A stretch of 55,831 bases of DNA from a virus. Where the stretch lies: IMG/VR virus record IMGVR_UViG_3300030419_007944, positions 1 to 55,831 of that record. One strand, given 5' to 3'. A program made the translations under genes and the position numbers. This document shows positions 2,159 through 22,647 of the stretch, one piece after another (within the stretch, counting starts at the first letter, position 1; each line of letters opens with the position of its first letter). The notes below the pieces were generated by a model. It was not told the DNA's origin. It did no database searches and saw only the letters and a list, made by a program, of their open reading frames with translations.

Positions 2159-3676
2159 TTAATTACTTTCAACTCTAAATTTAAACAGTTCTTCTTGCTC
2201 GCGCCATCCATCTGAGCCGTGATACAATAACTTAATTGCATACATATAGCCAGCTTCTAGAGTCGACATGTCTAAATCAAAATAGCTACCAGAATTATCG
2301 TATGATAGGTAAGTATGATACTTTGCACTAGAAGTTGAATTATTGATAACAGTAGAGTTATCAACAACACGAATAATTTCAAAAGAAGCGCTAGGGATTG
2401 TGGTTTTTTCTATCTCCTTGGAGGCTACAGTATAAAGAGTTGGAGAGAAATTTCTAGGCCTTGTAAATACTCTAAACCTTGCCGTCTCTTGATTGCTATA
2501 GCTCGATTTAAGGTTTGTTACTTTTGTTACATATTGATTAAAATCGTCAGATAACAGTACGGAAGAAGAATTAAAGTTTTTAACAGATATTGACCCTGTC
2601 TTGTATTCTCCACCAACGCTACCGGACCATATATCATGAAGAACAGAAGCAGTCGTGTTTAGATACAACTGCGCTTTATAGACGCCGGTACTCACCTTAG
2701 ATGCAGAAGCCGAAGCTAACACCGCGCCGGCCGGGGCATCTGATACGCTCCCGTATAATTTAACTTTAATTGTCTCAGTGTGAGGTATATCCTTGAGTGA
2801 GCCGCGAATATAATTATAAAGATAAAGATTGTTTAAGTTCTCATTTGCTGGCGCCATGCTTGAGCTAGAATAGAAGTTGCCGCGGTCGTCCATTGTTCTA
2901 GAGTCCCAGCGCGCTTCAATAGTTGGCCTTTTAAAGAAAAATTCACTTGTCCTAGAAAAAAATCTTTTTGTATAAAAACTAGTCTTTTGACCGACAGTGT
3001 TGTGTAGTAGAGAGCCGCTATCAGCACCGGAAGAGTTTGACACATAAGCTTCCTGGCTGGAAGTTAGAAAAATGCCAAACCCATTGTTGTCTTGATTCCC
3101 CGCTAGCCATTCTTCTATCGCATCTGTCACATCAACAAGCAGGTCTTCATCGCCCCCAGAAAAAGAAGCTGTATAGTTAGGCATGCTAGATCCAGAAGTG
3201 TAAGAAGAAGAGTGAAAGTCTCCACCAACTTTAACCCAAGCTGTTGATTTTTCTCTGTTAATCCAGTTCGATCCTTCTATATAGTCCTTGGTTTTATCTT
3301 TGTAGCCCTCCATGTCCAAGCCATAGCCTTCCTGCCAAGATTGTGACACGGCTAAGACATTTAATGTATAGTCTCTTGGTAACTGTTCTGTGTGTCTGGC
3401 GTTGAACATCCTCAAATAGAAACTAACACTTCCAGAGCCTGGTATTGTTCCAGCTTCACGATCAGATTTTATACTATCCGAGCCTGTAACTTGAAATTTT
3501 ATAAGTGTTCGAGACAGCTCGGCAGATGATGTAGTGTCGCCATGGCCATAAATAGAAAAAACCTCTAGAATATCTGCAGCGCCCATGTTAGAGCCGGTAC
3601 CACGAGTAGATAAATCTACAGTAAAGGCGTTTGTTATAGTATTATCTTGTGTGGCAAAATATTTTTTAATTCCCAT
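2159..3676 (-). CDS. DNRLRE-type virion structural protein
   Basis: This 505-residue protein contains a DNRLRE-like beta-sandwich. The clearest segment is around residues 180-205, where DVTDAIEEWLAG is followed by NNGFGIFL, the usual 'domain x W, small residue, N-G-F' signature. The sequence is rich in Ser, Thr, Asn and Tyr, as expected for an extracellular beta structure, and has no signal peptide. Its start codon shares a base with the stop of the gp6-like gene (3676), which suggests translational coupling. DNRLRE domains occur in surface and polysaccharide-associated proteins and in tail proteins of environmental phages. I infer a baseplate-attached or fibre-connecting component. A T4 counterpart is not recognisable from sequence alone. 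Confidence 0.65.
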   Translation of the reverse strand: MGIKKYFATQDNTITNAFTVDLSTRGTGSNMGAADILEVFSIYGHGDTTSSAELSRTLIKFQVTGSDSIKSDREAGTIPGSGSVSFYLRMFNARHTEQLPRDYTLNVLAVSQSWQEGYGLDMEGYKDKTKDYIEGSNWINREKSTAWVKVGGDFHSSSYTSGSSMPNYTASFSGGDEDLLVDVTDAIEEWLAGNQDNNGFGIFLTSSQEAYVSNSSGADSGSLLHNTVGQKTSFYTKRFFSRTSEFFFKRPTIEARWDSRTMDDRGNFYSSSSMAPANENLNNLYLYNYIRGSLKDIPHTETIKVKLYGSVSDAPAGAVLASASASKVSTGVYKAQLYLNTTASVLHDIWSGSVGGEYKTGSISVKNFNSSSVLLSDDFNQYVTKVTNLKSSYSNQETARFRVFTRPRNFSPTLYTVASKEIEKTTIPSASFEIIRVVDNSTVINNSTSSAKYHTYLSYDNSGSYFDLDMSTLEAGYMYAIKLLYHGSDGWREQEELFKFRVESN

Positions 3677-5474: not shown

Positions 5475-5870
5475 TTATGTAATGTCCTCAGCGTATAATG
5501 TTAAATCTGCTTCTAAATTTAAGCTTGCAACTTCGTATCGTATCTCAATAGACAAAATTTGAGAATCCAAAGCTTCATCCGGCTGCAATCCAGAGTCGAA
5601 ATGCATGCTCTTTATTCTAACAAAGGGCATATATCTATCGATCTGTTTTTTTATTCTCTGCTTTATCTTAGGAATTACATTAACCTTGGGTTCAAATAAG
5701 AAATGCTTGAGGCCTACGCCAAAGTCTGCATTCATAACGCGTTCGCCAGGTGAAGTTAATAATAGATTTTTAAAATTTTGGTGAACCTCTTCCTTATAGT
5801 TCTGTACTAGAGAATAAAGTCCATTTTTTTCATCCCGACTTAGAGGCAGTGTTGGGCCTATACCGTTCAT
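5475..5870 (-). CDS. Baseplate wedge protein, gp25-like (GPW/gp25 family)
   Basis: At 131 residues it matches T4 gp25 (132). It shows the family core: NGLYSLVQNYKEEVHQNFKNLLLTSPGERVMNADFGVGLKHFLFEP, where the PGER, DFG and LFEP elements are diagnostic, followed by an alternating beta C-terminus. Gp25 proteins join the wedge core next to the sheath and are among the most conserved parts of contractile tails; the T6SS TssE is a relative. Start is ATG at 5870 with an AGGGA site upstream. It sits between the giant structural gene and the gp6-like gene. This is the firmest evidence in the window that the phage has a contractile tail. Confidence 0.9.
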   Translation of the reverse strand: MNGIGPTLPLSRDEKNGLYSLVQNYKEEVHQNFKNLLLTSPGERVMNADFGVGLKHFLFEPKVNVIPKIKQRIKKQIDRYMPFVRIKSMHFDSGLQPDEALDSQILSIEIRYEVASLNLEADLTLYAEDIT

Positions 5871-5885: not shown

Positions 5886-8800
5886 TCATAATTCGTCTTC
5901 ACAATTTGGATTATCCTCATCGGCGCCGGTATCCATGGCGTCATCCTGTTGTTCTTCATATACACCTATAAGTAGTAACGCAATATAAATCATACCAGGA
6001 ATGGTACTAGGTGGTCCGACGCCTGTAATGAAGAGAGGATTAACAGGTGGCATGCCGCCGCCGAAGGGCATCCATGTAGGTAGCATGCCAGCCCAAAGGC
6101 CAGGGATCATGTAGGGCGATCCGAGAGTATTTTTAATCTTTCTTTTTGTATTTTTAATCTTTCTCTTCATGACAACAATTGTGTCTTGCAATTCTTGTTT
6201 AGTATTCTCTAGATCTTCGTCCAGTTTCAGATAATCTTTTTTCATCTGTTCTAAGGCTTCAACGTCCTCTTTTATGCTATCTATAGTAGTCTTTAGCTCT
6301 GTCACATCAATATCGCCTAGAATTTCACTTGAAGGAAAATTATAACAAGGCGCATCGCCTTCAGCATCAGCACATTCAGGATGAATTATTATCTCCCAAT
6401 CTTTTACGGCGCTGCCGACAATATTTACTGTCGCTATGCCAGGCTGCTGCTTTGCAGGATCTGGCTTAAGTTCTCCGGGAAGATTATCTATGGCCATCTG
6501 TATTGGAATGGCGCCGGCGCTGAGCTGCATCTCTATTTGTCTCTTGGCGTTCTCCACCTTCATAATTGTATTATTTATCGTCTGCTCGCTCAAAGCTACA
6601 GACTGTTCTAGAGCTGCAATAACAGACTCAGATATCGCAGTCGCTATATCGACAACCAGCTTAGCAATCATAACAGCCGGATCTGTAATTTCAACAAATC
6701 CTTTCAAAATATGCAGAGGAGTCATAATAAGAATTCTTAAAATCTGCTTCCTTAGATTGGGGACGTTCGTGTCGACGCCCATGTCTCCTGCTATAGCAAG
6801 CTCCTCCAAGGTTTGTTTTATAGGATCAGGAACAAATTTATAATCAGACGACTCTAGCAAGGATTTTAAAGTAAGCAAGAGAGAATATTTTGTCTCATCA
6901 AGTATATCAGTTGGCTCAGGAATGAACTTAGATAAGCCATCGCCGGCATATAGGAAAGCCAAAGTCATATACCTTCTCATAGGAAATAAATTTTCAAAAA
7001 GAAGTCTAAATTCAGGAGTCGCTTTAAGATTTTCTAGTTGTACCTTGGCTAAGTTTTTATAATAAAATTGGTCTGCAGAGTTAACATAGCTTTGAACAAT
7101 TTTAGGATTGCTAAGCAGCCACTCATGAACTTTTTCTGCAGACGCATCTACAGGCGGGACATTATCTATACGAGGTCCTGCGCCGCCGGTATATCCTCCA
7201 AGATCGTGGGCCCCAGGAAGTCGACCCAGCTCGTTTAATGAATAATTCTTGCCGTCGACATTAAAGCTTCTAGCCAAAGGTATGCCTTGTTCATCAAGAA
7301 AACTCAAGGTGTGTTCTGTCTCGATGATTGGTATATGTATCTCTCTTAATACGCTCTTGCCGGAGAAGTTGTCGTGTGATTCCTTTGTCGTATTTAAGTA
7401 TGGAGCTTGGTTTACAAATGTCTTTCCCCTCTTTATCGCGTCCAAAGACAGCCAGCTATGAAGAGTAGGCCAGAAATTAAATCCATCATCCTGTACATCT
7501 GCGATCGGGCGGGAAGTTATATAGCTCATCCTTAAACCAAATCTAATTTCTTTAAAAAATGGATACAGCCCATGTTCTAAAAATATTAATTTTTTATCAG
7601 GATCGGAATAAATATCTTTCAAAAATACATGTCGATAATAATGATTCCAAACTGAAAATGGCACATAGTCATAAACATGCGCATTATAAAAATTATTGCC
7701 ACTGCGCCACTCTGCATGTATTGGATCGGGCCCGAGTACTGAATCGACGGTGAACTCATGTTGCAAGACAGGATCGTCGCAGGGTTCGCCGTCGGGGCCG
7801 ACCTGCTGATAGACTTTAACGTCCAGCTTTTCACGATCAACAGAAGTTGAGTCGACAATATAAACGTAGGGCTGTATTATGATATTTCCCAATTTTTCAT
7901 TTAATGAATTGCGGATTGTACCATCAAGAAAATTTTCCTTAGAAGATGGTAGAAAATGCCCAAGATATTTTTCTTGAAAAACTCTGTCTTGTTTAGCCAA
8001 TTCACGGGGAGAACCCCAAGAGTCCGGGCGATTATCTATTATTTCATCTCGCAAGGTTTTATTTGGCGTATCCCATGAGAAAGGCTGTCGATCATGGTGT
8101 AAAAGAAGCTCCTTGAAGTTATTCCATCCGACATGCTCCATTGCCTCAGAAGCTTCTTCAACATCTTCGGCAGTGGGGGATCCAACAATAAAAGGATCGA
8201 ATCCGTCAGTGCTAGAATAATCATCATATCGTGTTGCAGAAAAATCTTTGCCGGCTTTTTGCGACCAATGAGGTGCGGCAGACCACGGCCTAGGATGGTA
8301 ATTCAAAGGAAGTGAGTACATATAGTTTTTTTGATTGTTCTTGGAGTTCATTCCAAACAAGTCCGAAGGATTTTCATATACCTCCGACCAGGTGCTGTCA
8401 GAATCAAGTCTCATGGACTGCAAATAAGGATCGCCGTGGGCGTGAACTGCATCTTCTAAGTTTGAATCGCCGATTGTATAATAGCCACCGCGTTTGCCAG
8501 AGCCATAGTTCATTGTATAGATATTTTGGTTAAAGTGCACATCTACAACATAATCATAGCCGCCAAGATAGGGGTCCCAGCCAGTTTTAAGAGAAGTCTT
8601 CCAAGAATCCTCATCAGCTTGGGCTTCGGCTAATCTTTTCTCATTTTTCTTTAAAAAATCTGGATCGGATGTCCGGACAATGTTAAGCTGTAGGTCGGTA
8701 GATAGAGGACTACTATTTGAGAAAATACCTTTTATAACACTAGCTATATTCTCACCTTCTTTACTGATGAGGTATTCTAATCCGCTAGTTTTAGTTCTAA

Positions 8801-11800
8801 GCAGGAAAGACTCATAGTCTGTTATGCCCTCTTCCTTCCTGATAATATCATTAACATATTCAGCTAGAAGTCCTATTTCTGGTATATCTTCCCTTATATT
8901 TCTAATAATAATGCCAGCAATGGCACTATCTTTAAAAACCTCAGAGACATCTATGCTGTCCCAGGAAATAAGGCTAGCCAAGCACATCTCTAAACAATAA
9001 ACTTTAACAAGGAGCATAATAACTCCTTCAATCAAAGATTTCTTTACAGCGTTTTCTTCTTGAGCGACGTCCTCATAGACGTCGCGACAAACGGACTTTT
9101 TATAAAATTTAATTATCTTAGGCTTGACTTCTTTTAAATTAAAAAAGTCTGTCTCGACATTTTCGAGATCTTTTCTGGGGACTACCCCTAATTCGTCAAA
9201 AACTTGTCGACACCTAGGATCGACTTTGCTTTTATTGAGAGGGTTTCTCAAAATCTTCTTCCATAATTTTTTCATAAACTTTCTCTCGTGAAGGCGAGAC
9301 TGGGAAAGTTTAGATAACATCTGATTAGAATAGGCATATTGCAGCGCACTATAGCCGTATCTTGATAAGATAAATTCTAATCTTTTATCGAATACTTCGG
9401 GTGGAGAAGAGTTATATTTTTCAGCAAACTTTCTATATTTATGAGTAAGCAATTTGCCAAATATTTGAGCTTTGAAGTTGCTCTTTACGAGATTGTAGGC
9501 GTTTCCGGGCAGAGTGTCAAGACGTAGATAATCTGTCCCTGCAACGTCCTGGTGGACACTTACTAGATCTCCAAATACATCTGAAATACTTTGCCAATTA
9601 TCAAGTATCTCATCAGTGCTGCTCATTCCTATTTCCTTAAGGAGATCTTGAATATCATCATCTAATTTTTTGGCATGAAGATAATTATAAAGAGGCCTAT
9701 CAAGCGTAGAAGCGCCATCTCGAATGGGATCCGGCGGGAGTGAGCCAACCTCTCCTTGTGCAGATGAGTAACTAGTCTGCTTTAACTTAGACTTGATCAG
9801 CGTGTATGTATCATATATATCTGATTCTTGCCATTCGCGATGGCCATCGAAGTCTGAAAGCATGTTTTGATAAACAAGTTTATGGTCTTGCTGAAGCCAT
9901 TGTAATTGATCGGTGATTGAAATTATATCACTATCAACCGTGTCCATTCCATTGGTGAACAATTCCAGCATTTGGTCCCTTTGTTGAGACGCATTAATTC
10001 CCGCTACCTCTTTTGGCTGTATTTCGGTAAACGGCAAATCATACATAATAACATTAGGATTAAAATTTGCTTTATCCTCTAGTAAAAGCTGATCTTCATA
10101 CGCGTTAGCCACGCCAGGAGAATATCCAAATGATGGAGGATATATTTCAGGCATCTGTAGTGAATCATAAAGTTCCGGATTTACTTTTTTATTCTCCATG
10201 CTGAAATGGCTAGTTAGTTCATCAGCATCTTTATTTAAGATATTATTGGGATCTCTAAAGCCTTCCTCGAACATAACCATAATAGGGCATATACCTGTTG
10301 TATTATAGAAAACAGTCGCGCTGGAGTGGGCGGCACCATCTAGGACGTGGCGAATGCCGTCTTCTGTTGATGCAGGGTCTGTGTCGACCAAGTGTAGCCT
10401 GTTGATTCCTAATCCAAAAATAACTCCTTTTATGGCTGAAAAATTGCTAAACTCTGGAAACATTTTCTCAATCCGCGACTTCTCCAAGCCAGTCGCCTCA
10501 GCGACGGTCAGCTCCATGAATCGTTCAACCAATGTTGTATCTTCTGAAAGGGACTGTGTTGAGCGCACCTGAAGCAGGCGGTCTGCTGCGGCCTTAACAC
10601 CGCGCCAGGAGTCCAAATGCTCCGGGGTGCCAGAACCTCTTTCTAGTGTCTTTGTTTCCTCATCTATAAACGCCCCAAGATACATCTGACACATTGGCAA
10701 CCAATATAGCGGATTTTGGTGAATATCTATTAGTTTTGTATCGAGAGGATAAACTTTATGAAGCCAAGCCTCCTGCATGCCATAGTGATTTTTATTTTTT
10801 GCCTGAATCGCTCCGGAGTCGTCTTTAAAGCTTGTTTCGCCAGACTTGTTTCTCCAGGGTGACACAGGCAGATATTCATACATCTTGCTGTCATTCGAAT
10901 AACCTAATTTCCGATCAAGCCTAAAAACAATATCAGGAGTGTACACAAATGCATCAAGTCCGTAGCGGTCGTCGCCGGTGCCGAACATCGGCTTTATAAT
11001 TTCTCCAAATTGTTTTACTAAAAACGCGCTAACTTCTTCTGTATCAACCTGCGCATCATCGGGAAGCTGCTCGTCTTCTTGTAGGCCATAGCCGCCTTCG
11101 GCGGCAGGAGTTTGCAAATAAAGATCTTTAAGCAAGCCTGCTGCTTTCTTAATATCAGACGGCACTTTCTGCTTCTTGTGATTTGCATCGTAGAGATTGT
11201 AAACACTTTCAATTGTCAGAGGCTTGATGGTGGAAAAATAACGGCCGGCGTTCTTGGTGGAGCTTTGGGATGCGGCATGCTCAAAACGAACATCAAGCTG
11301 ATCCGAAGCAAAACCAGGCATATTCGCGCTTTCAGAAGCGGCATGATTATCATCAGGATCGTTGCGGTCGTATCCATAATGAAAATATTTTCCATATGTA
11401 AGATTATATGTCTCATTAAGGGGAGTTTTAAAGTGTTGGCTAGTAGGACCTGCGTTGCCACAAACATACGCCACGCACTGCTTAATATAAGGATCACTGA
11501 CTGCATCGGTGAACATCTTGTGAGCTTCTCGCATCTCTTCAGGATCTGAGACTGTTAATAAGGCTCGGGGCGGCATAGAGAAGAATCTTAGACTTCTTAA
11601 ATCCTCCATCAAAGATCCCTTTGCGAAAGTTAGTATATTATCAGTCACCCTCTCTACAGAATCCTGAATTGCTTCTGGTAATTGAAAAAACCCTTGAGGG
11701 CCACAAGGCTCGGGAAGCACACCATCAAGCACATTTCCTCCACCGGCATCCGAATTGAATAGCAGACTGGCCATGTCTTTTACGGTATTTTCCAGATCTT

Positions 11801-14800
11801 CTATTTCTTTCTTTATCTGCGCGTCACATTCCTCTTCGGTCAGACCTTGCGACATCAACTCCTTGCAGCGAATATCATATTCATAATCCGGAAGATTGCA
11901 ATCTCCTAGATCAATAGGGTCTACGCCCTGTATAACATTGCAAATATCCAAATTAGGCAAAGCCTCGCCCATCTGCAGAAAGACAGTTGCGACGTCATCC
12001 ACAGATTCAAAAACAGAAGATAGCTCTGGATATGCAGAAAAATGTGCAAAAACGTCTTTCAAAGTTTTCTCAGTCGCGTCCCCTTGCAAAAGCGCACAAA
12101 GTTGACCTGGCGAAAGTTTGTCAAACAAGTCGTTGGTTGGGTTTAAAAATTCTTCTATTGGCAAGCCTGTGTCTCGCATTGCCGCGGCCAATGTCGGAAT
12201 AGGGACAGTTTCCGGAGTTATAGATCGACCAGATGGTCCGATGTCGTCCTCTTCGAAACACTTTTGTAAAGCGTCCTTGATTATAACACTAAGAATCTGA
12301 CCAAGCATTAAACCAATCATATTCAGGGTAGCATGTAGCAACAGCCGCCCATAATTTCCTATTAATTTATCAGTTGTAAGCTGATCCGCGAACTTCATTG
12401 TTGGAATAAGAGTTCTTGGATTTAGAATTCTCTTTAAATTATCCCAGTAGTTTGTACTCCAGTCACCCAAATCCATCTTGCCAACGCCTCGCATCAATTG
12501 AAGCAAAGGCCCTACTAGCGCTTCGCAGATCTGCCCTAGATCTAAGCCAGCATCTATTAACTTTCTATAGAATTCTTCAGCAGCTTTTCTTCTAGAACTT
12601 TTCTCCTCTTCCGTCTCGGAATTTGGTAGTTCTCGATCCACATTAATAGAACTTGCAAGACGAGATTCGTCAGAAATCCCTGCCTGGCCAGGGGACTGAA
12701 GATAATATTCATATTGAGATTCGACTGGCTCTAGCATGCCTTGTATAATCAAATTTGCATTGATTTCGCCGTCTGAATAGCCCGCATCTTTTATTCTTTG
12801 TTTATGATCCTCAATGGACAATTCATCAAAATTTGATGATGTCTTTAGTTGAATATCTACCCCCTGTCGTTCAATCTGTAAAATAGCTTCCACAATTGAC
12901 GAATCATATTTTTCACTAATAGCTAGTGCGGTAGCTGTCGGCGCATCTTTAAACAGTGGATTTAATTTATTACCAGAAACAACATAAGAAAGATCTTCCT
13001 CTTTTAAGATCGATCCATCTGAATACTTGTCAATAATTGCATTTGATTCTTCATCCAGCAAAAACGATGGGTCACCCAGCATAGGAGCCAGGTGTGGGAA
13101 AATATCAAGAATATCCTTTCTAATCTGGCTAACGCCTCGCAACTCAATGAGTTTTATTATCGCCTCTTCGCACAAAGCGGCTGCTGTCAGCTTTACGCCG
13201 AGCTTGTGTTGTAGGCATGCCATAAGCAGCGCCATAAGGCTAGCCGGATCGAGCCCATGGAGCACAGAACCGTAAAATATTTTAAATGCCCCGGAAGAAC
13301 CGGCATTCTTTGAAGCAACCTCAAGTTGATCTGATTTTTGTTGTAGAGCTTTTTTAGTTGATTCTGGATCTGTTGCTGGCGTTGGTTTACCCCATTCTTC
13401 ATAAAAAGCTTCCTTGCATTTGGGGTTGTTGGCCAAGATGTCATATAGCTTCTTTTGCTCACCTGAAATAACAGACCCTGTGAATCTTAGTTGTTCAAGA
13501 ATTTCTTTGCAATCTATCTTCTCTTCATCAAACCTGCGGTCGCGAGATGTATATATTTTCAACGGTGGAACCGTATAGCTCTGTAAGAAATCAAGCCACT
13601 TATCTTTTGCATCCTCTTTTGGGATGCTCTTGCCAAAAACATCTACTATATTTTTGTACATCATCAAGTAATGAAGTGTCCTAGATCCTTGGATGCCTTC
13701 GAATTTTGATCTAAACCAATTCAAAGCCTGTGTAGCCTCGAAGCCGGAACGCTTAAGCTGCTCAGGATCTATATAGGGGTCGAGATGCTGCAGATCGAAT
13801 AGTGTTTTTTCGACGGATCCAAGATCTGACCCGGGTGAAGGGGTGAGCATATCCGGAGAATATAAGATGTATGATATTGTCTGTCGCACATCTCCGCCAT
13901 CCTTGTTATTGTCTTTCAAGCCAATTTGTATCAAGTGATCTGGTGTGCTATCGACATGTGTACCTTGGGAAACATACCGCAAGGCTAAAGACTCCTTATC
14001 GGTTGCAACAGGAAAAGCTTGTCGAGCAAGAAAATCGTCTAATAAAGTTGGGAATTTCTTTAAATTTTCAATCTGCTGTTGGGGGTCCCAATCAATGTCA
14101 TTAGGATTCTTTATCACTCCGCCAGTTTGTTTATGAGCGTCATGTCTTGTTTTTATATCTTCAAAAATTTTCACCAAAGAATCAACAGCAGGGCGGACTT
14201 CTTTAAGTCGCATAGAAAAAGCGTAATTACGTCCAGTTGAAAATTCTGATTCTTCAGAAAAATTTCTTCCGTATAATTTCTTCGAATCGGGGAATGCGTC
14301 GATATAACTTACAGGTATCGCAAAAAGAACCTTTTGATTGTTAGGATTAGGGCCTGCTGTAGCAAGATTTGTCTCGACAGGAATAAAGTACTCCTCTTTA
14401 AGAGACTTATATAAAGTACCATCGCCTTTCGGTGTATCTAGACTTTTATTAAGATACTTCAATAAATCATCGAATGCTTTATCTCTGATTTGTACAATCG
14501 TTTCATTCTTTGCCTCGCCCTTAGTCTGTTCAAGTTTCTCCTTGTAAGAGTCAGACCCAATATCTATATTAGGCTCGGCAACTTCCAACTCTTCTTGAAG
14601 TTGTGCGGTATCCTTTCTGGCGCCGTCGCCAACTATAAAATAAAAATATCCTTCCGAATAGCGCAAAGTTGGCTTAGATTGAAGATTCTTTGCTTCATAT
14701 TTTGTACCTTCATTGGTCTTGGCAAAATTAAAATAAGCCATACGGACATCGAGCGGATCAAGCCCTTTCCATTTTAAATTCGAATCAGAAATTAAACTTG

Positions 14801-15974
14801 TTCCATCTGGCAGCTCTATAAAGGGATTTTCAAGCTCTGGTTCGCCTACACCATGTTTTTTATAGTTCACCCTCTTTGAGACGAGCGGATCAGCTAGCTG
14901 GGCGCCGACAAGACGACGTACGTATTGAGATTTAGTGTATAGAGGCCGAGTAAATTTATTTGTAATTTGACTTAATTTACTTCTTGTGATTTTCTTTTGA
15001 TTAGGCTCTCCGAATAAAGGTATAGGGTCTATATCTGTATCAGATATTTCGCCTTCGTCCACTAAAAAGCCAACCCAAATTCCAGTCTCTGAGTGTACCA
15101 CTTCTGTGACATGAATTCTGGTACCTATGGGAAATTCAACCCCATCACTTTCATAATTATTGTCGCCTTCTTTAGGCCTCACAAAATTACCACTACTGTC
15201 AATCAAATAAAAGTCAGGATCATCCCAGCCAACTTCAGTCACTGTTTCATTTTGTGGATCGCCCTTTGAAGGCGAAGTCCTTACGGGCACATAAGGACGA
15301 TTCCTCCGGCCGCCGGACTTGCCAGGAGCAAGATTTAAGCCAATATAGTGATTGGATGTAGCTGCCGAATTAAAGGCCATGCTGCTTTCAAGATCTGCAT
15401 CATCTTGTATTGTCTCTGGGCCTAGGAGATTAGTAAAAGGTGGTGGCTTTATTTCTCTTCTTGTCGTTATGCCGCCATATTTTGTTTCATCTAGAAAATC
15501 AATAGCCGCAGTAATAGCATTGTTATAAATGCCGACAAATTCCAACACATCGTCGGCATCTCCCAGCGCAAACAAGCTCTTAAGGTAGTATTCGTCCCTA
15601 TAAAGTAGCTTGTTTGCCAGCGCAATCTTTAAATCTTCAACATATGTAGCAACTTTTGGAGCTAAAATTTTCTTAAAGAAATCAACATCATCTTTATTTG
15701 GGTCGCACGTAGGGCAGAGAGGGCCCTCGGCAAATCCGAGAAAGCCGTCGCTGGTGTCTTCAAGAAACTGTTGTGAGTTTTGTGCAATAAAATTTAATTT
15801 ATCAAGCAAAGACTGTGCTTGGACAAGGTCATCCTGAGCTATTAGGCCAGAGCCATCAGGGGGAGACCATGCAAGATCAACAGTGGGCGCACCAGTGAAC
15901 CAGCCAGATCGCGTCTCTTCTAGCGCTAGTTCAACAAATGTTTCCCATTTTTGCTTTTCGTTTTCGTAAGACAT
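5886..15974 (-). CDS. Giant virion structural protein of 3,362 residues
   Basis: A single uninterrupted frame of over 10 kb encodes 3,362 residues. It lies between the spike-like gene (18 bases upstream) and gp25-like, so a baseplate or tail role is inferred. I recognise no enzyme motif. Composition is mixed globular, with many Tyr, Trp, Asp and Pro residues, which argues against a coiled-coil tape measure. Visible parts: an SH3-like stretch about residues 285-310 (GTRIHVTEVVHSETG); a hydrophobic helix about 1180-1205 (LNMIGLMLGQILSVII); another about 2270-2300 (GVIMLLVKVYCLEM); an Ala/Gln-rich amphipathic stretch near 3125-3175; a coiled coil near 3230-3295 ending in the repeat KIKNTKRKIKNT; a Gly/Pro-rich hydrophobic tail with PGMIYIALLLIGVY; and an acidic end. 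Gene reality is certain; function is not. Confidence 0.8.
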   Translation of the reverse strand: MSYENEKQKWETFVELALEETRSGWFTGAPTVDLAWSPPDGSGLIAQDDLVQAQSLLDKLNFIAQNSQQFLEDTSDGFLGFAEGPLCPTCDPNKDDVDFFKKILAPKVATYVEDLKIALANKLLYRDEYYLKSLFALGDADDVLEFVGIYNNAITAAIDFLDETKYGGITTRREIKPPPFTNLLGPETIQDDADLESSMAFNSAATSNHYIGLNLAPGKSGGRRNRPYVPVRTSPSKGDPQNETVTEVGWDDPDFYLIDSSGNFVRPKEGDNNYESDGVEFPIGTRIHVTEVVHSETGIWVGFLVDEGEISDTDIDPIPLFGEPNQKKITRSKLSQITNKFTRPLYTKSQYVRRLVGAQLADPLVSKRVNYKKHGVGEPELENPFIELPDGTSLISDSNLKWKGLDPLDVRMAYFNFAKTNEGTKYEAKNLQSKPTLRYSEGYFYFIVGDGARKDTAQLQEELEVAEPNIDIGSDSYKEKLEQTKGEAKNETIVQIRDKAFDDLLKYLNKSLDTPKGDGTLYKSLKEEYFIPVETNLATAGPNPNNQKVLFAIPVSYIDAFPDSKKLYGRNFSEESEFSTGRNYAFSMRLKEVRPAVDSLVKIFEDIKTRHDAHKQTGGVIKNPNDIDWDPQQQIENLKKFPTLLDDFLARQAFPVATDKESLALRYVSQGTHVDSTPDHLIQIGLKDNNKDGGDVRQTISYILYSPDMLTPSPGSDLGSVEKTLFDLQHLDPYIDPEQLKRSGFEATQALNWFRSKFEGIQGSRTLHYLMMYKNIVDVFGKSIPKEDAKDKWLDFLQSYTVPPLKIYTSRDRRFDEEKIDCKEILEQLRFTGSVISGEQKKLYDILANNPKCKEAFYEEWGKPTPATDPESTKKALQQKSDQLEVASKNAGSSGAFKIFYGSVLHGLDPASLMALLMACLQHKLGVKLTAAALCEEAIIKLIELRGVSQIRKDILDIFPHLAPMLGDPSFLLDEESNAIIDKYSDGSILKEEDLSYVVSGNKLNPLFKDAPTATALAISEKYDSSIVEAILQIERQGVDIQLKTSSNFDELSIEDHKQRIKDAGYSDGEINANLIIQGMLEPVESQYEYYLQSPGQAGISDESRLASSINVDRELPNSETEEEKSSRRKAAEEFYRKLIDAGLDLGQICEALVGPLLQLMRGVGKMDLGDWSTNYWDNLKRILNPRTLIPTMKFADQLTTDKLIGNYGRLLLHATLNMIGLMLGQILSVIIKDALQKCFEEDDIGPSGRSITPETVPIPTLAAAMRDTGLPIEEFLNPTNDLFDKLSPGQLCALLQGDATEKTLKDVFAHFSAYPELSSVFESVDDVATVFLQMGEALPNLDICNVIQGVDPIDLGDCNLPDYEYDIRCKELMSQGLTEEECDAQIKKEIEDLENTVKDMASLLFNSDAGGGNVLDGVLPEPCGPQGFFQLPEAIQDSVERVTDNILTFAKGSLMEDLRSLRFFSMPPRALLTVSDPEEMREAHKMFTDAVSDPYIKQCVAYVCGNAGPTSQHFKTPLNETYNLTYGKYFHYGYDRNDPDDNHAASESANMPGFASDQLDVRFEHAASQSSTKNAGRYFSTIKPLTIESVYNLYDANHKKQKVPSDIKKAAGLLKDLYLQTPAAEGGYGLQEDEQLPDDAQVDTEEVSAFLVKQFGEIIKPMFGTGDDRYGLDAFVYTPDIVFRLDRKLGYSNDSKMYEYLPVSPWRNKSGETSFKDDSGAIQAKNKNHYGMQEAWLHKVYPLDTKLIDIHQNPLYWLPMCQMYLGAFIDEETKTLERGSGTPEHLDSWRGVKAAADRLLQVRSTQSLSEDTTLVERFMELTVAEATGLEKSRIEKMFPEFSNFSAIKGVIFGLGINRLHLVDTDPASTEDGIRHVLDGAAHSSATVFYNTTGICPIMVMFEEGFRDPNNILNKDADELTSHFSMENKKVNPELYDSLQMPEIYPPSFGYSPGVANAYEDQLLLEDKANFNPNVIMYDLPFTEIQPKEVAGINASQQRDQMLELFTNGMDTVDSDIISITDQLQWLQQDHKLVYQNMLSDFDGHREWQESDIYDTYTLIKSKLKQTSYSSAQGEVGSLPPDPIRDGASTLDRPLYNYLHAKKLDDDIQDLLKEIGMSSTDEILDNWQSISDVFGDLVSVHQDVAGTDYLRLDTLPGNAYNLVKSNFKAQIFGKLLTHKYRKFAEKYNSSPPEVFDKRLEFILSRYGYSALQYAYSNQMLSKLSQSRLHERKFMKKLWKKILRNPLNKSKVDPRCRQVFDELGVVPRKDLENVETDFFNLKEVKPKIIKFYKKSVCRDVYEDVAQEENAVKKSLIEGVIMLLVKVYCLEMCLASLISWDSIDVSEVFKDSAIAGIIIRNIREDIPEIGLLAEYVNDIIRKEEGITDYESFLLRTKTSGLEYLISKEGENIASVIKGIFSNSSPLSTDLQLNIVRTSDPDFLKKNEKRLAEAQADEDSWKTSLKTGWDPYLGGYDYVVDVHFNQNIYTMNYGSGKRGGYYTIGDSNLEDAVHAHGDPYLQSMRLDSDSTWSEVYENPSDLFGMNSKNNQKNYMYSLPLNYHPRPWSAAPHWSQKAGKDFSATRYDDYSSTDGFDPFIVGSPTAEDVEEASEAMEHVGWNNFKELLLHHDRQPFSWDTPNKTLRDEIIDNRPDSWGSPRELAKQDRVFQEKYLGHFLPSSKENFLDGTIRNSLNEKLGNIIIQPYVYIVDSTSVDREKLDVKVYQQVGPDGEPCDDPVLQHEFTVDSVLGPDPIHAEWRSGNNFYNAHVYDYVPFSVWNHYYRHVFLKDIYSDPDKKLIFLEHGLYPFFKEIRFGLRMSYITSRPIADVQDDGFNFWPTLHSWLSLDAIKRGKTFVNQAPYLNTTKESHDNFSGKSVLREIHIPIIETEHTLSFLDEQGIPLARSFNVDGKNYSLNELGRLPGAHDLGGYTGGAGPRIDNVPPVDASAEKVHEWLLSNPKIVQSYVNSADQFYYKNLAKVQLENLKATPEFRLLFENLFPMRRYMTLAFLYAGDGLSKFIPEPTDILDETKYSLLLTLKSLLESSDYKFVPDPIKQTLEELAIAGDMGVDTNVPNLRKQILRILIMTPLHILKGFVEITDPAVMIAKLVVDIATAISESVIAALEQSVALSEQTINNTIMKVENAKRQIEMQLSAGAIPIQMAIDNLPGELKPDPAKQQPGIATVNIVGSAVKDWEIIIHPECADAEGDAPCYNFPSSEILGDIDVTELKTTIDSIKEDVEALEQMKKDYLKLDEDLENTKQELQDTIVVMKRKIKNTKRKIKNTLGSPYMIPGLWAGMLPTWMPFGGGMPPVNPLFITGVGPPSTIPGMIYIALLLIGVYEEQQDDAMDTGADEDNPNCEDEL

Positions 15975-15992
15975 CTTTACCTATATTATCAA

Positions 15993-17339
15993 TTAGTTTC
16001 CTTTATTGAATCTGCTGTTAATATATGTTGAGCCAAGTTCCATTAAATAATTTTTCTTAAAATTTGTTAAATTTGTGATTTGCTTAAGAACAGAAAAATC
16101 TGTTTTTGTTGTTGTCTCTATATTACACAAAAGATCGCTTATCATCGTCTCTCCTGACGGAAGAGTCGGATGAGCAAAGAACGTTGTAATATGCTTGTGA
16201 TTCGCAACAGCATTATTGAACTTTCTCTGATACTTTGTCCAAGCATGAAAATATTGTGCTAAATCTTCTATATAATCGACAATTTTAAATAATGCTTCAG
16301 ATAGATTGTCCCCCAATACTAGCGGCTGGAGACCGTCTTCGTCATTGTTGGCCATCAAATGAATTCCGGAAAATTGACGTACAGTGCCGCCTTGCGAATT
16401 CTTTCGATCCGTATTCGTTACCAGTTTTAAACTTTCTCGGCCGACCAGCCTTACGTTGTCGGCTTTAATCGCGATACCAGATTTTGCATCAGTTCTGAAG
16501 TAGCTTTCCTCGGCGCCGATAGAGAAATTTCTGTCAATATCTGTTTTTTGAGAAATAATAATCCTAGCTGCATCCAGGGCAAAATTAGGATTAGTATATG
16601 ACTTTTTTCCAGTTGCGTCGACCTGTTGCGGATTGTGGCCGCCTGCGCCAGCTACAAGGTCGATCGAGTCACATTGTGTGTGCCCCTTGCCTCCATAGCC
16701 AGTATGGAAGTGATTTACTCTGTCGTTTCCTAAGACTATAAAACAATTATTATCAGGTCCGCGTATCTCTAGTTCGCTAGGTACGCTAACACGATTTATA
16801 CGAGGCTGGATTTTCTTTTCTCCAAAAACACCCAATATGCCTTTATGCGCGCGCTCTTCCAAAGGCGCTTTTTCTATCTTTTTTCTAATATCAGGAGGTA
16901 GCCCTTGGAGATCGCGCGCCTTCTTAAGAAGGGCCTCAAGCTCTATAGGAGGCATAGCCATTAAATCTTCTAAAGACACTCCAGGGATATCTGGCGCTTT
17001 TCCAGCTTTATCAGCCTGAAGCTCTGCCACGCTTTGAGACGCCGTGCCTCCGGGGGCAGCCGGGTCAACTTCGGTGGGCTGGGGTGATGATGCTGGAGGC
17101 CCGGCGCCGACTGGAGATTTGGCTTGCGATGGGGGCACTCCGTCAAATTCCAGACCTTCGTCAATTTTTTGTAAAAAATAACTGTCTGCTTCAGCTTGGT
17201 CTGTAAAAGACTTCTTTTCTACCAGAGAGCCATTCTCATCAAATACTTCAAAATGATAGTTTGTCTGTAGTCCGTCTTTCGTTGAGTTATTTACCTGATA
17301 TGTTTTAACCTGTCCGCCGGCTGCGATATCAAAGTCCAT
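15993..17339 (-). CDS. Baseplate central spike-like protein (gp5 C-terminal type)
   Basis: The protein has 448 residues. Residues about 1-75 form a small domain, 90-150 a Pro/Ala-rich linker. From about 175 on there are short repeated beta strands of the kind seen in phage spike beta-helices: ELEIRGPDNNCFIVLG, DSIDLVAGAGG, FSIGAEESYFRTDAKSGIAIKADNVRLVG, RESLKLVTN and SGIHLMANN. The C-terminus (about 345-448) is helical. In T4 the spike beta-helix is the C-terminal part of gp5. Here the upstream 1,315-residue protein may carry the hub part, so the two genes together could replace gp5. This reading rests on pattern and position, not on a close match; a PAAR-tipped membrane-piercing role is possible. 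Confidence 0.5.
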   Translation of the reverse strand: MDFDIAAGGQVKTYQVNNSTKDGLQTNYHFEVFDENGSLVEKKSFTDQAEADSYFLQKIDEGLEFDGVPPSQAKSPVGAGPPASSPQPTEVDPAAPGGTASQSVAELQADKAGKAPDIPGVSLEDLMAMPPIELEALLKKARDLQGLPPDIRKKIEKAPLEERAHKGILGVFGEKKIQPRINRVSVPSELEIRGPDNNCFIVLGNDRVNHFHTGYGGKGHTQCDSIDLVAGAGGHNPQQVDATGKKSYTNPNFALDAARIIISQKTDIDRNFSIGAEESYFRTDAKSGIAIKADNVRLVGRESLKLVTNTDRKNSQGGTVRQFSGIHLMANNDEDGLQPLVLGDNLSEALFKIVDYIEDLAQYFHAWTKYQRKFNNAVANHKHITTFFAHPTLPSGETMISDLLCNIETTTKTDFSVLKQITNLTNFKKNYLMELGSTYINSRFNKGN

Positions 17340-17348
17340 TTCGTTTCC

Positions 17349-20300
17349 TTATTGTCCGTATTCAGCTGCCACTTCTTCTATATCGTCCCACTTTATAAGA
17401 CGACCTCCTAGTGATTCTCCGCTCCAAAAATGAAAATGCATATGATCGTCAATATTTGCATCAGACCAAGAAACTGCGTTCACTCGCGCAACGACGTCTT
17501 TTATGCCATATATAGCATCTATTCTTCTTTGCTCGGCGGGACTCCATATATTTCCACCTCGCCATCTTCGCTTCATGAAAAACGAGTTACCCCACTTCAT
17601 GCCAGATAATTCACAAAATGTTAACATCCAAAGTGTGGGGTTGGCGCCTACTGGAACAATCGTCGAACCATCGGCAAATTCCATAACATCTTCGTAGCTA
17701 TCTTCTGTCTTTCTATATCCATCAGTATCAAAAAGATCATCCCATTCTTCTGCCTGGCGCAGACGCCGGCCGAAGCCAAAAAAATCTTCATATACATTAT
17801 CGCTGGTGGTTCCAAAATCAAAACCTACAGTAGGATTATACCATGGCCCATCCCAGTATTTTCTTCCGCGCCAGACTCCAAGACGTTCAAGTTCTTCGCG
17901 GTGTTTATCAATATCGGGAGACCACATACCAGTCCATGCACTGAAGAAGGGATCGCCGGCAGAGTAGCCATTTATGAATGGATCAACCGATAAAGCAAGG
18001 CCTAGAGAATATAGCGACAGGCCAGATTTATAGGCAGTCACGCCGCCTCGGCCGGCGGCACCTTTTATACCCTCCATAATTCGAAAAGGCACATAATTTG
18101 ATTGAGCGCATGCGGCTGACCATGCTTTTTCTAGAATCGGCGCAAGGCAATTCCAAACAGGAGGAGATCGCAAATTAACAACTGTGTTGTCCGGGCCTCG
18201 GGCTTTATATCTAAAAGTGCCTGTTTTGTAGCCTATGCCAGCATTTAAAATTCCGGTCTTGTTTTTCGATGCATTGCTAGATGTCAACATTTCGCTTTTC
18301 TTAGGAAAAAATGGTATTAATTTAGCTAAATCAGAATAATTTTCAGGTACTGGAATTTTGGATTTGCAGTTTATTATTCCTAGAGACTCAGACATATCTG
18401 TCGACAGCAAAGATGGATCTGGGTATCCTCCCGCATTTAACGATCTTAGACTAAAAGGATTAACAACACACTCAGGGTCTCGCCCAGATGGTTTGGCGGT
18501 TTTTAACTCTTCCTTCAAGACAGATATGGTTTTTTGTAGAGCAGATTTAATGCCTATAGAGCGTGCGACGTCTCCTAGATGGCCGTGACTTTCAGCGTTT
18601 CCTGCAATGCCAATACTTATTTGTAACTTTTCTAAAGTATTAAAATGATAAACCCCAAAAGCTTGATTATAATTCTTCCAAAGCTCTTCATGATTAAAGT
18701 CTTCTATTGTCTGCTCTGTTGCGGTAAGTGCTTCTTCAAATCCCTTGAGGGCGGCCTCTACCAGTTCTTTGTCTGAGCCGACATTGTTTATCACATCTTG
18801 ATGGGCTGACAGTGTTGACAATTCATAGTATCGCTTGCGTGCATTTAGATACTTTTTATATCTAGCCTCCAGCGGGCTCCCGGAGTGAAAAACCAATTTT
18901 TCCTTATCATTACAATATACTGCATAAGGCCTCTCATTATTAATCTCCAGGGTGCAAAGATTGTCGCCACCATGGCCAAAGAAGGTGCCAGTGGGGTTTC
19001 CCTGGGCGGCAAAATCATATAAAAACTCTTCAAACGATGAAATCACAGCATTCAAAAGGATCAATTCTTTACTATATATTGCTTTCGCAGCATTCCCCCT
19101 CTTCGCGGCAAGAGCTTGGGCATGATTCGGCATTGTGCCGGCTCCTGGCTGTTCTCCTGCTCTCGAAATAGATTTTTGTGGAAGAGTAATGTCTTTGAGG
19201 AAGGTGTTCTTCATAGACATGACATATCCAGCCGGGGGCCAGGGGCTTGTATTTGTAACAAATAAATTCACACTATTCCTTGACAAGCTTGCACCATCTA
19301 CAAGGGCAGAAAATTTCTGTTCTCCGGGGGCGCCAGAGGCCTTATACGTTTGAGAAAACTTTTCACCCAAGCCAATTTTATTAAAAAATTTCTTTGCTCC
19401 GGGATTTACGCTAGTAAAAGGAGTTACATAATTAAACTCAATCGTCTGAGTGAGGTCCTCTGTTTTAAATAGGAGATAATCCTCATAAATTGTATAAGAT
19501 GGAATGGAGGGAAATAGATGATAGCTATCATTGTCCATTCCCGAATCAATAAAATCTACACGATTAATATCAACATTTCTAACACCAGTTTCTGCCCGAG
19601 AGTGAGAAGGGCTATTAGAAATTCTCTGCACCATGGAGGCGAAGTTCACGCCGCCTAGGCCATCGGCCAATATAGAGATATATGAAATTTTATCTCGTAC
19701 ATTTCCTAAATGTTCGTTTAAAACACCCACCACTTCTTCGTGAAAAAGTCCAAAATTACCGCCAGTAAAAGATCCATCAAAAGTTGAAAATTCTCTCTCT
19801 CTGAGACGTGTCACGCTTAAAACAGATTCATTAAGAAAAGTCTCTGTGGGAGTGAATCCGGGATCTTCGAAAAGATCGGTGCCTCCTAGGCCCTCCTTAT
19901 ATCCAACGCTGATAGGTATATCATCTAAATATTGTCTAATGACAGATAATAATTTTTCGTTCTGTATACCTTCAGGATGGACTCTCACAAGATTAATGTC
20001 AGGAGGAGAATGAGATATTCCAGCGCCAATATTTGCCCCAGTTAAGAGCCCGCTTAGGCGATTGGCGCCGCCATCGTGAGCCATAGTGCCAAAACCTCTT
20101 GAATACATCATCTCGGGAATAACCAGAACAAAATTTCTCCCTTCTTTAATCAAATCTTTTATACCTGGGCCTAGAATATCACGAAAGTCGTTTGGCTCAG
20201 GGGTAGTTGCGGCGTCGCGTGCTTGAGCTGTAGTGGTGTTTGGCCCATTCACCCACGCATGTCCGAAGCCGCCTACATCATGAAAATAATATTTTATTTC

Positions 20301-21296
20301 AATTGGAGCAGAGAGATCCAAAAATTTTGATGCATAAATAATAGTCTCGCGCCCTAAAGATAACGGCCTATCTAATAAATCCAAATATCCATTATTTTTT
20401 AAGTGGCCGGCCCATATAAAAGCATTATTAGGGCCCGGAGCGCGTCCTGGAATTTTATGTACAGGGCTTGGTGCCGATAAGTTAAGTGCTGCATCGAAGT
20501 GCTCTTTTGTTTGTGCAGTACCGTTTCCATAAAAGCCAGTCTTTATCTTACCCTTAACTTTTCTAATTGGCAAATCAGATTTAATGTCAGAAACAGTGCT
20601 ACCAACAAAAAGACCAGGGCCGGGGCCCTCGTCGATTCGAGGCTGCTTACATTCTGGCGGCTTGAACTTATCCAAGGCAGACTTTTTGACCTCCTCAAGA
20701 TGTGGAATTGGCGTATCTTCTATTACTCCAACTATGATACCTGACGGCTTCCCAGAGGCACCAGTTGGCCGAGGATTAAATTCAATCTGTATTATTGAGT
20801 TGACGGAAATCTTTTGCGCCTCTGTGGACGGAAGACCAACAGCCTCATATTGGCCATGCAGGCCTATGGTAAATTCATCATCAGAATCAAGATTTTCCAA
20901 GCCACCAACATGTGCAACAAGGGCATCATCAATTCCTCGCACATGCGCCAAAACTCTAACAGGCGGATCGTGCCTAAGAGATGAGGAAGATCTTTCTTCT
21001 ATATCTTCTTGTCCTGAAAGTCTCATGGATTTTGACAAGTTACCACCTGTTGAGGCATCATTATAAGCCGAGGGGCCGGTCAGGACCTTTAACACAATGG
21101 CCAGATGACGACCAGAATATGGATTGGTCGAGCGACTCGCGGCATCGTAATGTTCATTTAATTTGCGACGCAGTAGTTTAGATGTTCTCACCTGTCGATC
21201 GCGTCGCTCCTCGACAAGAGGACCGTACTGTGGATTTACCTCGTCAGCATCGTAATTACCGACCCACTTCCAAATAGGTGAAAATTTCTTCGACAC
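17349..21296 (-). CDS. Hub-like baseplate protein with hydrolase-like and M15 peptidase-like domains
   Basis: The 1,315-residue protein appears to have three parts. Residues about 100-215 look like an OB-fold (VRVLAHVRGID, IGLHGQYEAVGLP, IIQIEFNP, IIVGVIED), as at the N-terminus of T4 gp5. Residues about 325-600 resemble an alpha/beta hydrolase: APIEIKYYFHDVGG, FVLVIPE and ISILADGLGG correspond to SPINIILYFHG, TVLVVPN and ISLIAHSAGG of the hydrolase at 52185-52871, but the nucleophile Ser is missing. Residues about 1085-1310 resemble an M15 D-Ala-D-Ala carboxypeptidase (SLYSLGLALSVDP, later HMHFHFW), yet the usual zinc-binding His and Asp of SxHxxGxAxD are Tyr and Ser. Start is GTG at 21296 behind GAGGAAC. 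A structural hub built from inactive enzyme folds is inferred. Confidence 0.55.
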   Translation of the reverse strand: MSKKFSPIWKWVGNYDADEVNPQYGPLVEERRDRQVRTSKLLRRKLNEHYDAASRSTNPYSGRHLAIVLKVLTGPSAYNDASTGGNLSKSMRLSGQEDIEERSSSSLRHDPPVRVLAHVRGIDDALVAHVGGLENLDSDDEFTIGLHGQYEAVGLPSTEAQKISVNSIIQIEFNPRPTGASGKPSGIIVGVIEDTPIPHLEEVKKSALDKFKPPECKQPRIDEGPGPGLFVGSTVSDIKSDLPIRKVKGKIKTGFYGNGTAQTKEHFDAALNLSAPSPVHKIPGRAPGPNNAFIWAGHLKNNGYLDLLDRPLSLGRETIIYASKFLDLSAPIEIKYYFHDVGGFGHAWVNGPNTTTAQARDAATTPEPNDFRDILGPGIKDLIKEGRNFVLVIPEMMYSRGFGTMAHDGGANRLSGLLTGANIGAGISHSPPDINLVRVHPEGIQNEKLLSVIRQYLDDIPISVGYKEGLGGTDLFEDPGFTPTETFLNESVLSVTRLREREFSTFDGSFTGGNFGLFHEEVVGVLNEHLGNVRDKISYISILADGLGGVNFASMVQRISNSPSHSRAETGVRNVDINRVDFIDSGMDNDSYHLFPSIPSYTIYEDYLLFKTEDLTQTIEFNYVTPFTSVNPGAKKFFNKIGLGEKFSQTYKASGAPGEQKFSALVDGASLSRNSVNLFVTNTSPWPPAGYVMSMKNTFLKDITLPQKSISRAGEQPGAGTMPNHAQALAAKRGNAAKAIYSKELILLNAVISSFEEFLYDFAAQGNPTGTFFGHGGDNLCTLEINNERPYAVYCNDKEKLVFHSGSPLEARYKKYLNARKRYYELSTLSAHQDVINNVGSDKELVEAALKGFEEALTATEQTIEDFNHEELWKNYNQAFGVYHFNTLEKLQISIGIAGNAESHGHLGDVARSIGIKSALQKTISVLKEELKTAKPSGRDPECVVNPFSLRSLNAGGYPDPSLLSTDMSESLGIINCKSKIPVPENYSDLAKLIPFFPKKSEMLTSSNASKNKTGILNAGIGYKTGTFRYKARGPDNTVVNLRSPPVWNCLAPILEKAWSAACAQSNYVPFRIMEGIKGAAGRGGVTAYKSGLSLYSLGLALSVDPFINGYSAGDPFFSAWTGMWSPDIDKHREELERLGVWRGRKYWDGPWYNPTVGFDFGTTSDNVYEDFFGFGRRLRQAEEWDDLFDTDGYRKTEDSYEDVMEFADGSTIVPVGANPTLWMLTFCELSGMKWGNSFFMKRRWRGGNIWSPAEQRRIDAIYGIKDVVARVNAVSWSDANIDDHMHFHFWSGESLGGRLIKWDDIEEVAAEYGQ

Positions 21297-21309: not shown

Positions 21310-21606
21310 TCATTCTTCTTTTATCAAATCATAGATTTGAGTTTTATCTATTGAAGATAAATTACCAGGCGCGGTTTCCTTTTTAGTTATCAAAGAAGCT
21401 AGTTTAACCAACTGCTCGTTCGAACGCTGCAAGGTTTCTAAATATTTTGCGGCGACGGGGCCTGTATACTGGTGTTTTGTTTCATCGGTTTTTAAAATCT
21501 TCATCAATTCTACAAGAAGAGTTGAGGCTAGAGCCCGGTCTTTCCTCACATTGTCAATAGCCTCTTCGATGAAGGATTCTGAATTTATATGTTTCCCTTT
21601 TCCCAT
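21310..21606 (-). CDS. Small conserved-looking phage protein, unknown function
   Basis: A 98-residue, mostly helical, charged protein with no signal peptide or membrane segment. It contains two helical segments, roughly 8-42 (SFIEEAIDNVRKDRALASTL) and 48-75 (GPVAAKYLETLQRSNEQLVKLASL), and a short C-terminal tail. The start overlaps the end of the gp55-like gene by 22 bases, and it precedes the baseplate block by 13 bases. The helical, Lys/Glu-rich make-up would suit a small DNA- or protein-binding accessory factor, but I do not recognise the family. Gene reality is supported by the tight fit between two real genes. Confidence 0.6.
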   Translation of the reverse strand: MGKGKHINSESFIEEAIDNVRKDRALASTLLVELMKILKTDETKHQYTGPVAAKYLETLQRSNEQLVKLASLITKKETAPGNLSSIDKTQIYDLIKEE

Positions 21607-22298
21607 TCTGCTTTAAAGTCCCTATATCTTTTTCGTATGCGATTAAGGTTGTTTACAATCTGCTTTGTGTTTAAGCCCGTTATCTCGCGCATATACAAGT
21701 AAATAGCTTTTTTATTAAAAATCTCTATCTCATCAATACTATTAAAAAGGATCTTGATCGCATCAATAACTTTTTTTTCGTTGTCTTTTAATTTTAATTT
21801 CTCCCAGCCATCTATTTCCCTAAAAAGATGTTGCCAGAACTCAAAGTTTTCACGATGCGACTCATATAGGTTCTGGACGACTAGATCAGAATTCTCAGTC
21901 TCATTTTTCAGATCTTCATATTGTATATCTCTTTTAAGCTTTTTAGAGTTCTGCTTAACCTTGTGTATAAACCAATTTTTTGTTATAACACTAAAATAAG
22001 AGAATGCCTTAGATTTTCTTTCAACATCATATTTGTCAAGAATAGTCATAAGCCAAATCTTGCAATCATCTTTCAAATATTCAATATTTGGTAAATTATT
22101 AAATTTGTATGTGTAGACAATTTTATCTACCATTTCATTAAACGCAGGGCCAATGAATTGCATATATAGTTCTGTTCGCTCGCTCTTGCTTTCAGTTAGA
22201 GCATAACGAATTATTGCTTCTTCATGAACTTTTGTAAAATAATTATTTTTTCTACGGGGTCGTCGGCGTCGCTTCAGCGTCTTCTTCGGTTCCGTCAT
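21585..22298 (-). CDS. Late-transcription sigma factor, gp55-like
   Basis: A basic 237-residue protein resembling T4 gp55 (185 residues), the sigma-like factor that directs host RNA polymerase to late promoters. After an Arg/Lys-rich N-terminus it has FTKVHEEAIIRYAL, then LYMQFIGPAFNEMVDKIVYTYKF, and the hallmark region KAFSYFSVITKNWFIHKVKQ near residues 115-135, equivalent to the sigma region 2 helices of gp55. The C-terminus (KQIVNNLNRIRKRYRDFK) is basic. The frame is open to 22310, but the ATG at 22298 has AGGA at good spacing, so I place the start there. A TATAAATA box at 46893-46900 fits the known promoter preference of this family. The gene overlaps the next one upstream by 47 bases. 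Confidence 0.78.
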   Translation of the reverse strand: MTEPKKTLKRRRRPRRKNNYFTKVHEEAIIRYALTESKSERTELYMQFIGPAFNEMVDKIVYTYKFNNLPNIEYLKDDCKIWLMTILDKYDVERKSKAFSYFSVITKNWFIHKVKQNSKKLKRDIQYEDLKNETENSDLVVQNLYESHRENFEFWQHLFREIDGWEKLKLKDNEKKVIDAIKILFNSIDEIEIFNKKAIYLYMREITGLNTKQIVNNLNRIRKRYRDFKAEWEKGNI

Positions 22299-22647
22299 CA
22301 TCTTCCTCATCTATTACTTCTACTTCGTAATGCTCATCTTGAAAATCAATTATTCTATTAACCATCGTTTTAGAATGATCAATCAAATTTTGTAAATTTT
22401 CGTCACCATAAAACATATCCAAAGAATGAATTTGTTCCAAATGTTCCGCAAAAGATTCAAACTCTCCCAAAAGATTATCTATATCATCTCCTGTTTCTTC
22501 AATTCGCTTGATACTCTTTAAAGAAAACCACACTAAAACAATATTAATAACCACACTAACATATAGTAAAAACGGAAGAACGCCAACTACAGCCATTAGC
22601 AAGACAGCGTTCAACAAAACAGATAGTGCTATAATATACCTACTCAT
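22252..22647 (-). CDS. Small membrane protein with acidic tail
   Basis: The 131-residue protein begins with two hydrophobic helices, about residues 4-21 (IIALSVLLNAVLLMAVVG) and 25-43 (PFLLYVSVVINIVLVWFSL), followed by a helical cytoplasmic-type segment and a strongly acidic C-terminus (VIDEEDDDGTEEDAEATP). Both termini are probably on the same side of the inner membrane. It overlaps the sigma gene downstream by 47 bases and the zinc-ribbon gene upstream by 8. I do not recognise a family. Membrane anchoring of something acting on DNA or transcription is only a guess from the neighbours. Confidence 0.65.
   Translation of the reverse strand: MSRYIIALSVLLNAVLLMAVVGVLPFLLYVSVVINIVLVWFSLKSIKRIEETGDDIDNLLGEFESFAEHLEQIHSLDMFYGDENLQNLIDHSKTMVNRIIDFQDEHYEVEVIDEEDDDGTEEDAEATPTTP

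Follow-up and report, generated by a model that had tools for sequence, protein, structure and literature searches.

A putative phage tail-hub peptidase that was probably deactivated more than once and retained as a structural or wall-binding module

Tail-associated wall hydrolases of phages are usually assumed to be retained for cutting. In T4, gp5 is the tail lysozyme of the hub and spike and is cleaved between its lysozyme and its beta-helix (PMC3004832). In the contractile phage phiCD508 no tail wall hydrolase was found, and the tail tip has no evident ability to degrade the wall (PMC11948020). The LytM domain of PrgK, encoded by the conjugative plasmid pCF10, and DipM have both lost their zinc motifs and are described as degenerate and possibly regulatory (PMC11323569). 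Domains of this type indicate that peptidoglycan-peptidase folds can persist non-catalytically in envelope-crossing machines.

Here we describe a 1315-aa protein encoded in IMG/VR virus record IMGVR_UViG_3300030419_007944, the 55,831 bases of which were analysed as a whole and are referred to below as the window. In inferred place and order this protein resembles T4 gp5, with a putative OB-like domain, a wall-hydrolase domain and a putative beta-helical spike. It differs from gp5 in that the spike-like part is a separate gene, an M15-type peptidase domain takes the place of the lysozyme, an alpha/beta-hydrolase domain and a helical linker are added, and the enzyme site appears to be lost in the window; the likeness is one of position, and sequence homology to gp5 is no part of it. 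Whereas enzymatic domains are absent from the phiCD508 tail tip, the window retains the domain with its metal site lost. As in PrgK and DipM, a peptidoglycan-peptidase fold without zinc motifs seems to have been kept in an envelope-crossing machine, but those are LytM-family domains in the setting of a secretion system, whereas the present one is of the M15 type and would belong to a phage tail. We consider it probable (roughly 0.6) that a tail-hub peptidase was deactivated more than once in this family and retained as a structural or wall-binding module.

The open reading frame occupies exactly positions 17349 to 21296 on the minus strand, running from a GTG start at 21296 down to 17349. A sequence-only reading of this gene, which gave no strand, had called its product baseplate hub-like, and the gene order agrees with such a setting. 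Upstream lie a conserved 98-aa ORF (21310..21606) and the gene for a gp55-like late sigma factor that matches PHROG 234 (21585..22310), the latter indicating a bacterial host. Downstream follow a 448-aa protein that is the putative separate spike (15993..17339), a conserved 3362-aa protein of the same cluster (5886..15974), and gp25-like (5475..5870) and gp6-like (3676..5472) baseplate wedge proteins; all of these genes are likewise on the minus strand, and the two wedge genes place the hub gene in a baseplate neighbourhood. Flanked by the spike-like gene and gp25, the 3362-aa protein is syntenic in relatives long enough to show it and had no Pfam match above cut-off. Elsewhere in the genome of this tailed phage, a long block on the minus strand (23106-43444) holds sugar- and surface-related matches: nucleotide-sugar epimerases, a phosphoheptose-isomerase-type protein, an aminotransferase, radical SAM proteins and glycosyltransferases.

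Scans of uncultured viral contigs recovered 22 distinct homologues of the hub-like protein, nearly all of them whole-length, at 30-40% identity; family counts given below are out of 23, that is, these homologues plus the window protein. A further scan, this time with the C-terminal domain as query, recovered those viruses again and one additional partial locus, which indicates that the homologue set is near saturation in that collection. Used as the sole query, the window protein had no useful match in Pfam, PHROGs, PDB sequences or cultured phages. Searches of cultured phages by tblastn with the hub, a relative's M15 domain or the 448-aa protein found no match, and no hub homologue was found in bacterial and archaeal genome contigs. 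The family is known here from uncultured-virus records alone.

Wherever flanking sequence was present in these records, the arrangement was conserved, with the sigma factor followed by the 98-aa ORF, the hub, the 448-aa protein and the giant protein. Homologous sigma factor, gp25 and gp6 genes occur in the same order in Flavobacterium phage immuto, Microcystis phage Mel-JY01 and the 484-kb record LR756508. In immuto and Mel-JY01 a spike-type single-chain protein appears to be located between those genes, with a separate gene annotated as a chitinase in the same interval of Mel-JY01. The order shared with these two phages provides positional support for a hub or spike role; in profile comparison, sequence similarity between the family and their spike-type proteins was weak. 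At the N-terminus, residues ~60-192 (20721..21119) are predicted with modest confidence to form five strands, suggestive of an OB-like fold, and gave no profile match to the relatives' spike-type proteins. The beta-helical spike would be expected in the separate 448-aa protein, where profile similarity is also weak. Together, the synteny and the weakly predicted OB-like fold suggest that the 1315-aa protein is a tail hub.

The first of the two enzyme-like domains has an alpha/beta-hydrolase fold according to an AlphaFold2 model of residues 1-720, in which the core at residues ~250-700 (19197..20549) reached block pLDDT values mostly of 80-95. Its top Foldseek matches in the PDB were mostly alpha/beta-hydrolase enzymes or esterases (best match: glucuronoyl esterase 6gry, E 8.5e-4) with modest TM-scores, as the sequence-only reading of a hydrolase-like core would predict. 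No Pfam match above cut-off was found for this domain, and a PDB profile search with the hydrolase alignment gave no meaningful match. The ADGLGG previously noted is present at residues 544-549 (19650..19667), and in the model its G546 (codon GGC) lies between strand 537-545 and helix 547-556, which is the place of the nucleophile. The family therefore resembles esterases such as 6gry and feruloyl esterase 1gkk in predicted fold and in the strand-elbow-helix arrangement at this position, but it differs from them in carrying Gly (20 members), Asn (2) or Ser (1) as the nucleophile-elbow residue, at ~10% identity. The window protein has neither a Ser, Cys or Asp nucleophile at the elbow nor the catalytic His; H679, conserved in 18 members, is Phe in the window. 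With the classical triad missing in nearly the whole family, the hydrolase domain looks dead. Residues H339, G343-G345, R387, N388, E395, S399 and G401 are invariant in 23/23 members and lie at the expected active-site face, which points to strong constraint there and fits a ligand pocket, an interface or unusual chemistry. Most probably this domain serves a structural or ligand-binding role. It is followed by a linker region modelled as mainly helical (residues ~716-985; 18342..19151).

The ADGLGG had originally been compared with AHSAGG in another gene of the window (52185-52871, minus strand). That gene does encode a 228-aa hydrolase-like protein with AHSAGG and with a plausible later Asp and His (in LDATYS and TTTHARA), and the only homology we found for it in the records tested was to its N-terminal peptide. 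An origin of the hydrolase domain by duplication of this gene was considered and dropped, as the two share 22 aligned columns only. A near-identical start peptide, KLFENWRxY/F, occurs on otherwise different proteins that begin at 52871 and 54358 of the window (minus strand), at 1501 and 2064 of contig L094 and at 1498 of contig L095; a similar peptide, MKEILKSWRRFEKS, opens the 791-aa product of the gene at 49790-52165. These peptides resemble the capsid-targeting peptides found at the N-termini of internal proteins of T4.

The second enzyme-like domain, residues ~1035-1315 (17352..18194), is of the Peptidase_M15_4 (PF13539) type, examples of which are phage endolysins of the T5 and Ply500 type. 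With matches accepted at E up to 5, PF13539 matched 13 of the 23 C-terminal domains (best E 4e-5), most of them below the curated cut-off; the hub of L017 exceeded it (27.1 vs 25 bits, over positions 4-64 of 70). The window protein itself had no PF13539 match and belongs to the group through full-length homology. In most family members SxHxxGxAxD is followed by a C-terminal DxxHF, the order seen in Peptidase_M15_4; the family differs from PF13539 in that the domain is fused into a tail hub and has an insert between the motifs, and in that the window and seven others are without the first two zinc ligands. In the AlphaFold2 model the C-terminal half has the expected order of elements, and Foldseek searches against the PDB and BFVD yielded nothing beyond weak matches, most of them helical. 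A PDB profile search with the M15 alignment had no meaningful match. Structure prediction, which had been suggested as a check on both domains, therefore recovered the hydrolase fold but yielded no usable PDB or viral match for the C-terminal half, so it is on sequence that we take this domain to be a relative of the M15_4 peptidases, as first proposed.

In the window the first M15 motif reads SLYSLGLALSVD (residues 1094-1105; 17982..18017), with the zinc-ligand His and Asp replaced by Y1096 (TAT) and S1103 (TCG), in line with the replacement of two zinc ligands noted earlier. The TCG codon is at least two base changes away from either Asp codon, so S1103 is not a single-base error. Residue K1078 (AAA; 18063..18065) stands where 13/14 motif-bearing homologues have Arg. 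The third motif is kept, with D1284 and H1287 in DDHMHFHF (DDHMHF being residues 1283-1288; 17433..17450), and the catalytic-Asp position is still present. Across the 23-member alignment, the His and Asp of SxHxxGxAxD are kept in 15 members, 14 of which also have the third His; one site is partial, and eight, including that of the window, are lost. When four alignment positions (both motif ligands, the putative catalytic residue and the third ligand) are read as a string, the 14 motif-bearing members are HDDH or HDSH, and the lost states are YSDH (window), DNKH (L036 and L004), GTAH (L012), SNNY (L015 and L006), ANNY (L038) and FTKQ (L039). The hub of L048 (7992-11675) reads HDNQ, a partial loss of another kind in which the first two ligands are kept and the third His is changed to Gln.

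H1096 and D1103 are found in 14/14 motif-bearing and 0/8 lost members, groups that are defined by these very residues. Outside that definition, R1078 was the next most associated of 331 columns (13/14 vs 0/8; Fisher 3e-5, with no phylogeny correction), so the pattern exceeds what chance would give. Even among the motif-bearing members a complete metal site does not prove activity, since L018 and L008 keep the metal ligands and are without the presumed catalytic Asp. We infer that both M15-type zinc binding and activity have been lost from the window domain. The proposal of two dead enzyme domains thus appears sound for the hydrolase, which lacks its Ser nucleophile nearly family-wide, but not for the family's M15 domain, which has intact ligands in 14/23 and seems to have been deactivated in some lineages only, yet kept.

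We considered other explanations for the nature of this protein and its domains. It could be some other tail or virion protein that happens to be encoded within the baseplate cluster, as the missing hub sequence match and the modest prediction of the OB-like part would allow, but we find this unlikely given that in all relatives it occupies a fixed place, with the late sigma gene on one side and the spike-like and wedge genes on the other, and that the gene order matches in two cultured phages. It is somewhat harder to credit that the hydrolase domain is active through the non-classical active-site-face residues H339, E395, S399 and D545. An invariant face of this kind would be unusual for a purely structural part, but a ligand pocket or protein interface would be equally well conserved, Gly occupies the elbow in 20/23 members, the spacing of Asp 545 is unsuited to an Asp nucleophile, and the window has Phe in place of the His that 18 members share at 679. 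Improbable too, and slightly more so, is an M15 domain that remains enzymatic in the window because D1284, H1287, D1105 and Y1096 form a shifted or different metal site. Alternative ligands near the site had been named as a point to check, and D1284 and H1287 are kept and D1105 is invariant in every family member; however, the lost members share no common replacement (Y, D, G, S, A or F at 1096; S, N or T at 1103), Arg 1078 changes as well, and some of them are also without the third His. We retain the reading of a hub peptidase that has been deactivated and kept.

How often this deactivation occurred depends on the tree that is used. A tree of the remainder of the protein (the body) requires four changes for the lost state and rejects a single clade containing every lost member (p-AU 0.008). 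The best tree of the M15 domain, built without the catalytic columns, also needs four changes, but it does not reject a single lost clade (p-AU 0.22), and in it the window joins the lost clade L036/L004/L012 (support 97/96), a grouping that the body tree rejects (p-AU 0.028, for a group picked after seeing the domain tree). This conflict is what would be expected if the site had been lost on one or two occasions, after which recombination moved the inactive C-terminal domain between hub lineages, with fewer losses than the body tree implies. That scenario is a real but doubtful contender, as the domain tree itself needs four changes and the window's position on the body tree is not rejected by the domain data (p-AU 0.09). 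No more than two losses are forced when only branches with good support are counted, and we dropped a figure of exactly four independent losses because the domain tree permits fewer. The change in the M15 site was probably lineage-specific and repeated, with two to four losses, or fewer together with exchange of the C-terminal domain. As the motif is shared with peptidases of the wider family, we take the motif-bearing state as ancestral and the change as running from active to inactive; the tree by itself gives no direction. Loss in several ways might also be expected if the lost M15 domains were decaying remnants without a role, but every lost member has an intact frame. Moreover, M15-domain divergence, expressed relative to that of the hydrolase domain, was 1.03 in lost pairs and 1.02 in motif-bearing pairs (from amino-acid identities of non-independent pairs, not dN/dS), and this absence of a rise in lost-site domains argues against decay. 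The closest lost pair, L015/L006, is 72% identical in the M15 domain vs 63% in the hydrolase domain, and L038/L039 is the one lost pair in which the M15 domain is clearly the less alike (33% vs 42%). We regard decay as very improbable.

Based on these data, we propose that the 1315-aa protein is the tail hub or spike adapter of a large contractile-tailed phage. Its ancestor would have carried a C-terminal M15_4 (LAS-type) zinc peptidase domain beside a separately encoded spike protein, as the counterpart of the T4 gp5 lysozyme between OB-fold and beta-helix. In most relatives, where the metal site is intact, this domain would cleave the peptides of peptidoglycan during entry of the tail tip into the envelope. 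In the lineage of the window and in others, replacement of the first two zinc ligands and the accompanying Arg would have abolished M15-type zinc binding. The inactive domain would have persisted in full and under constraint, presumably because the architecture of the hub requires its fold or because it may still grip the wall, and the preceding hydrolase domain would contribute structure or ligand binding. No match to a second M15_4, an M23 or an SLT domain, which could represent a compensating wall hydrolase, was found in any of the 23 records, some of which may be fragments.

Retention of a peptidase fold without catalysis is already known from PrgK and DipM, and by analogy the present hub family would be a variant of this. 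For annotation, the family carries a warning: from the fold alone such a protein would be called a peptidase or an esterase, and neither name should be taken to mean activity. Sister lineages that differ in having or lacking the metal site and are otherwise syntenic provide a natural experiment that separates the presence of the domain from catalysis in entry. We tentatively suggest, at a little under even odds, that a hub wall peptidase was switched off independently several times under normal constraint because it has a second essential, catalysis-free role, such as spike docking or wall gripping, and that the pseudo-esterase domain may be an older case of the same conversion.
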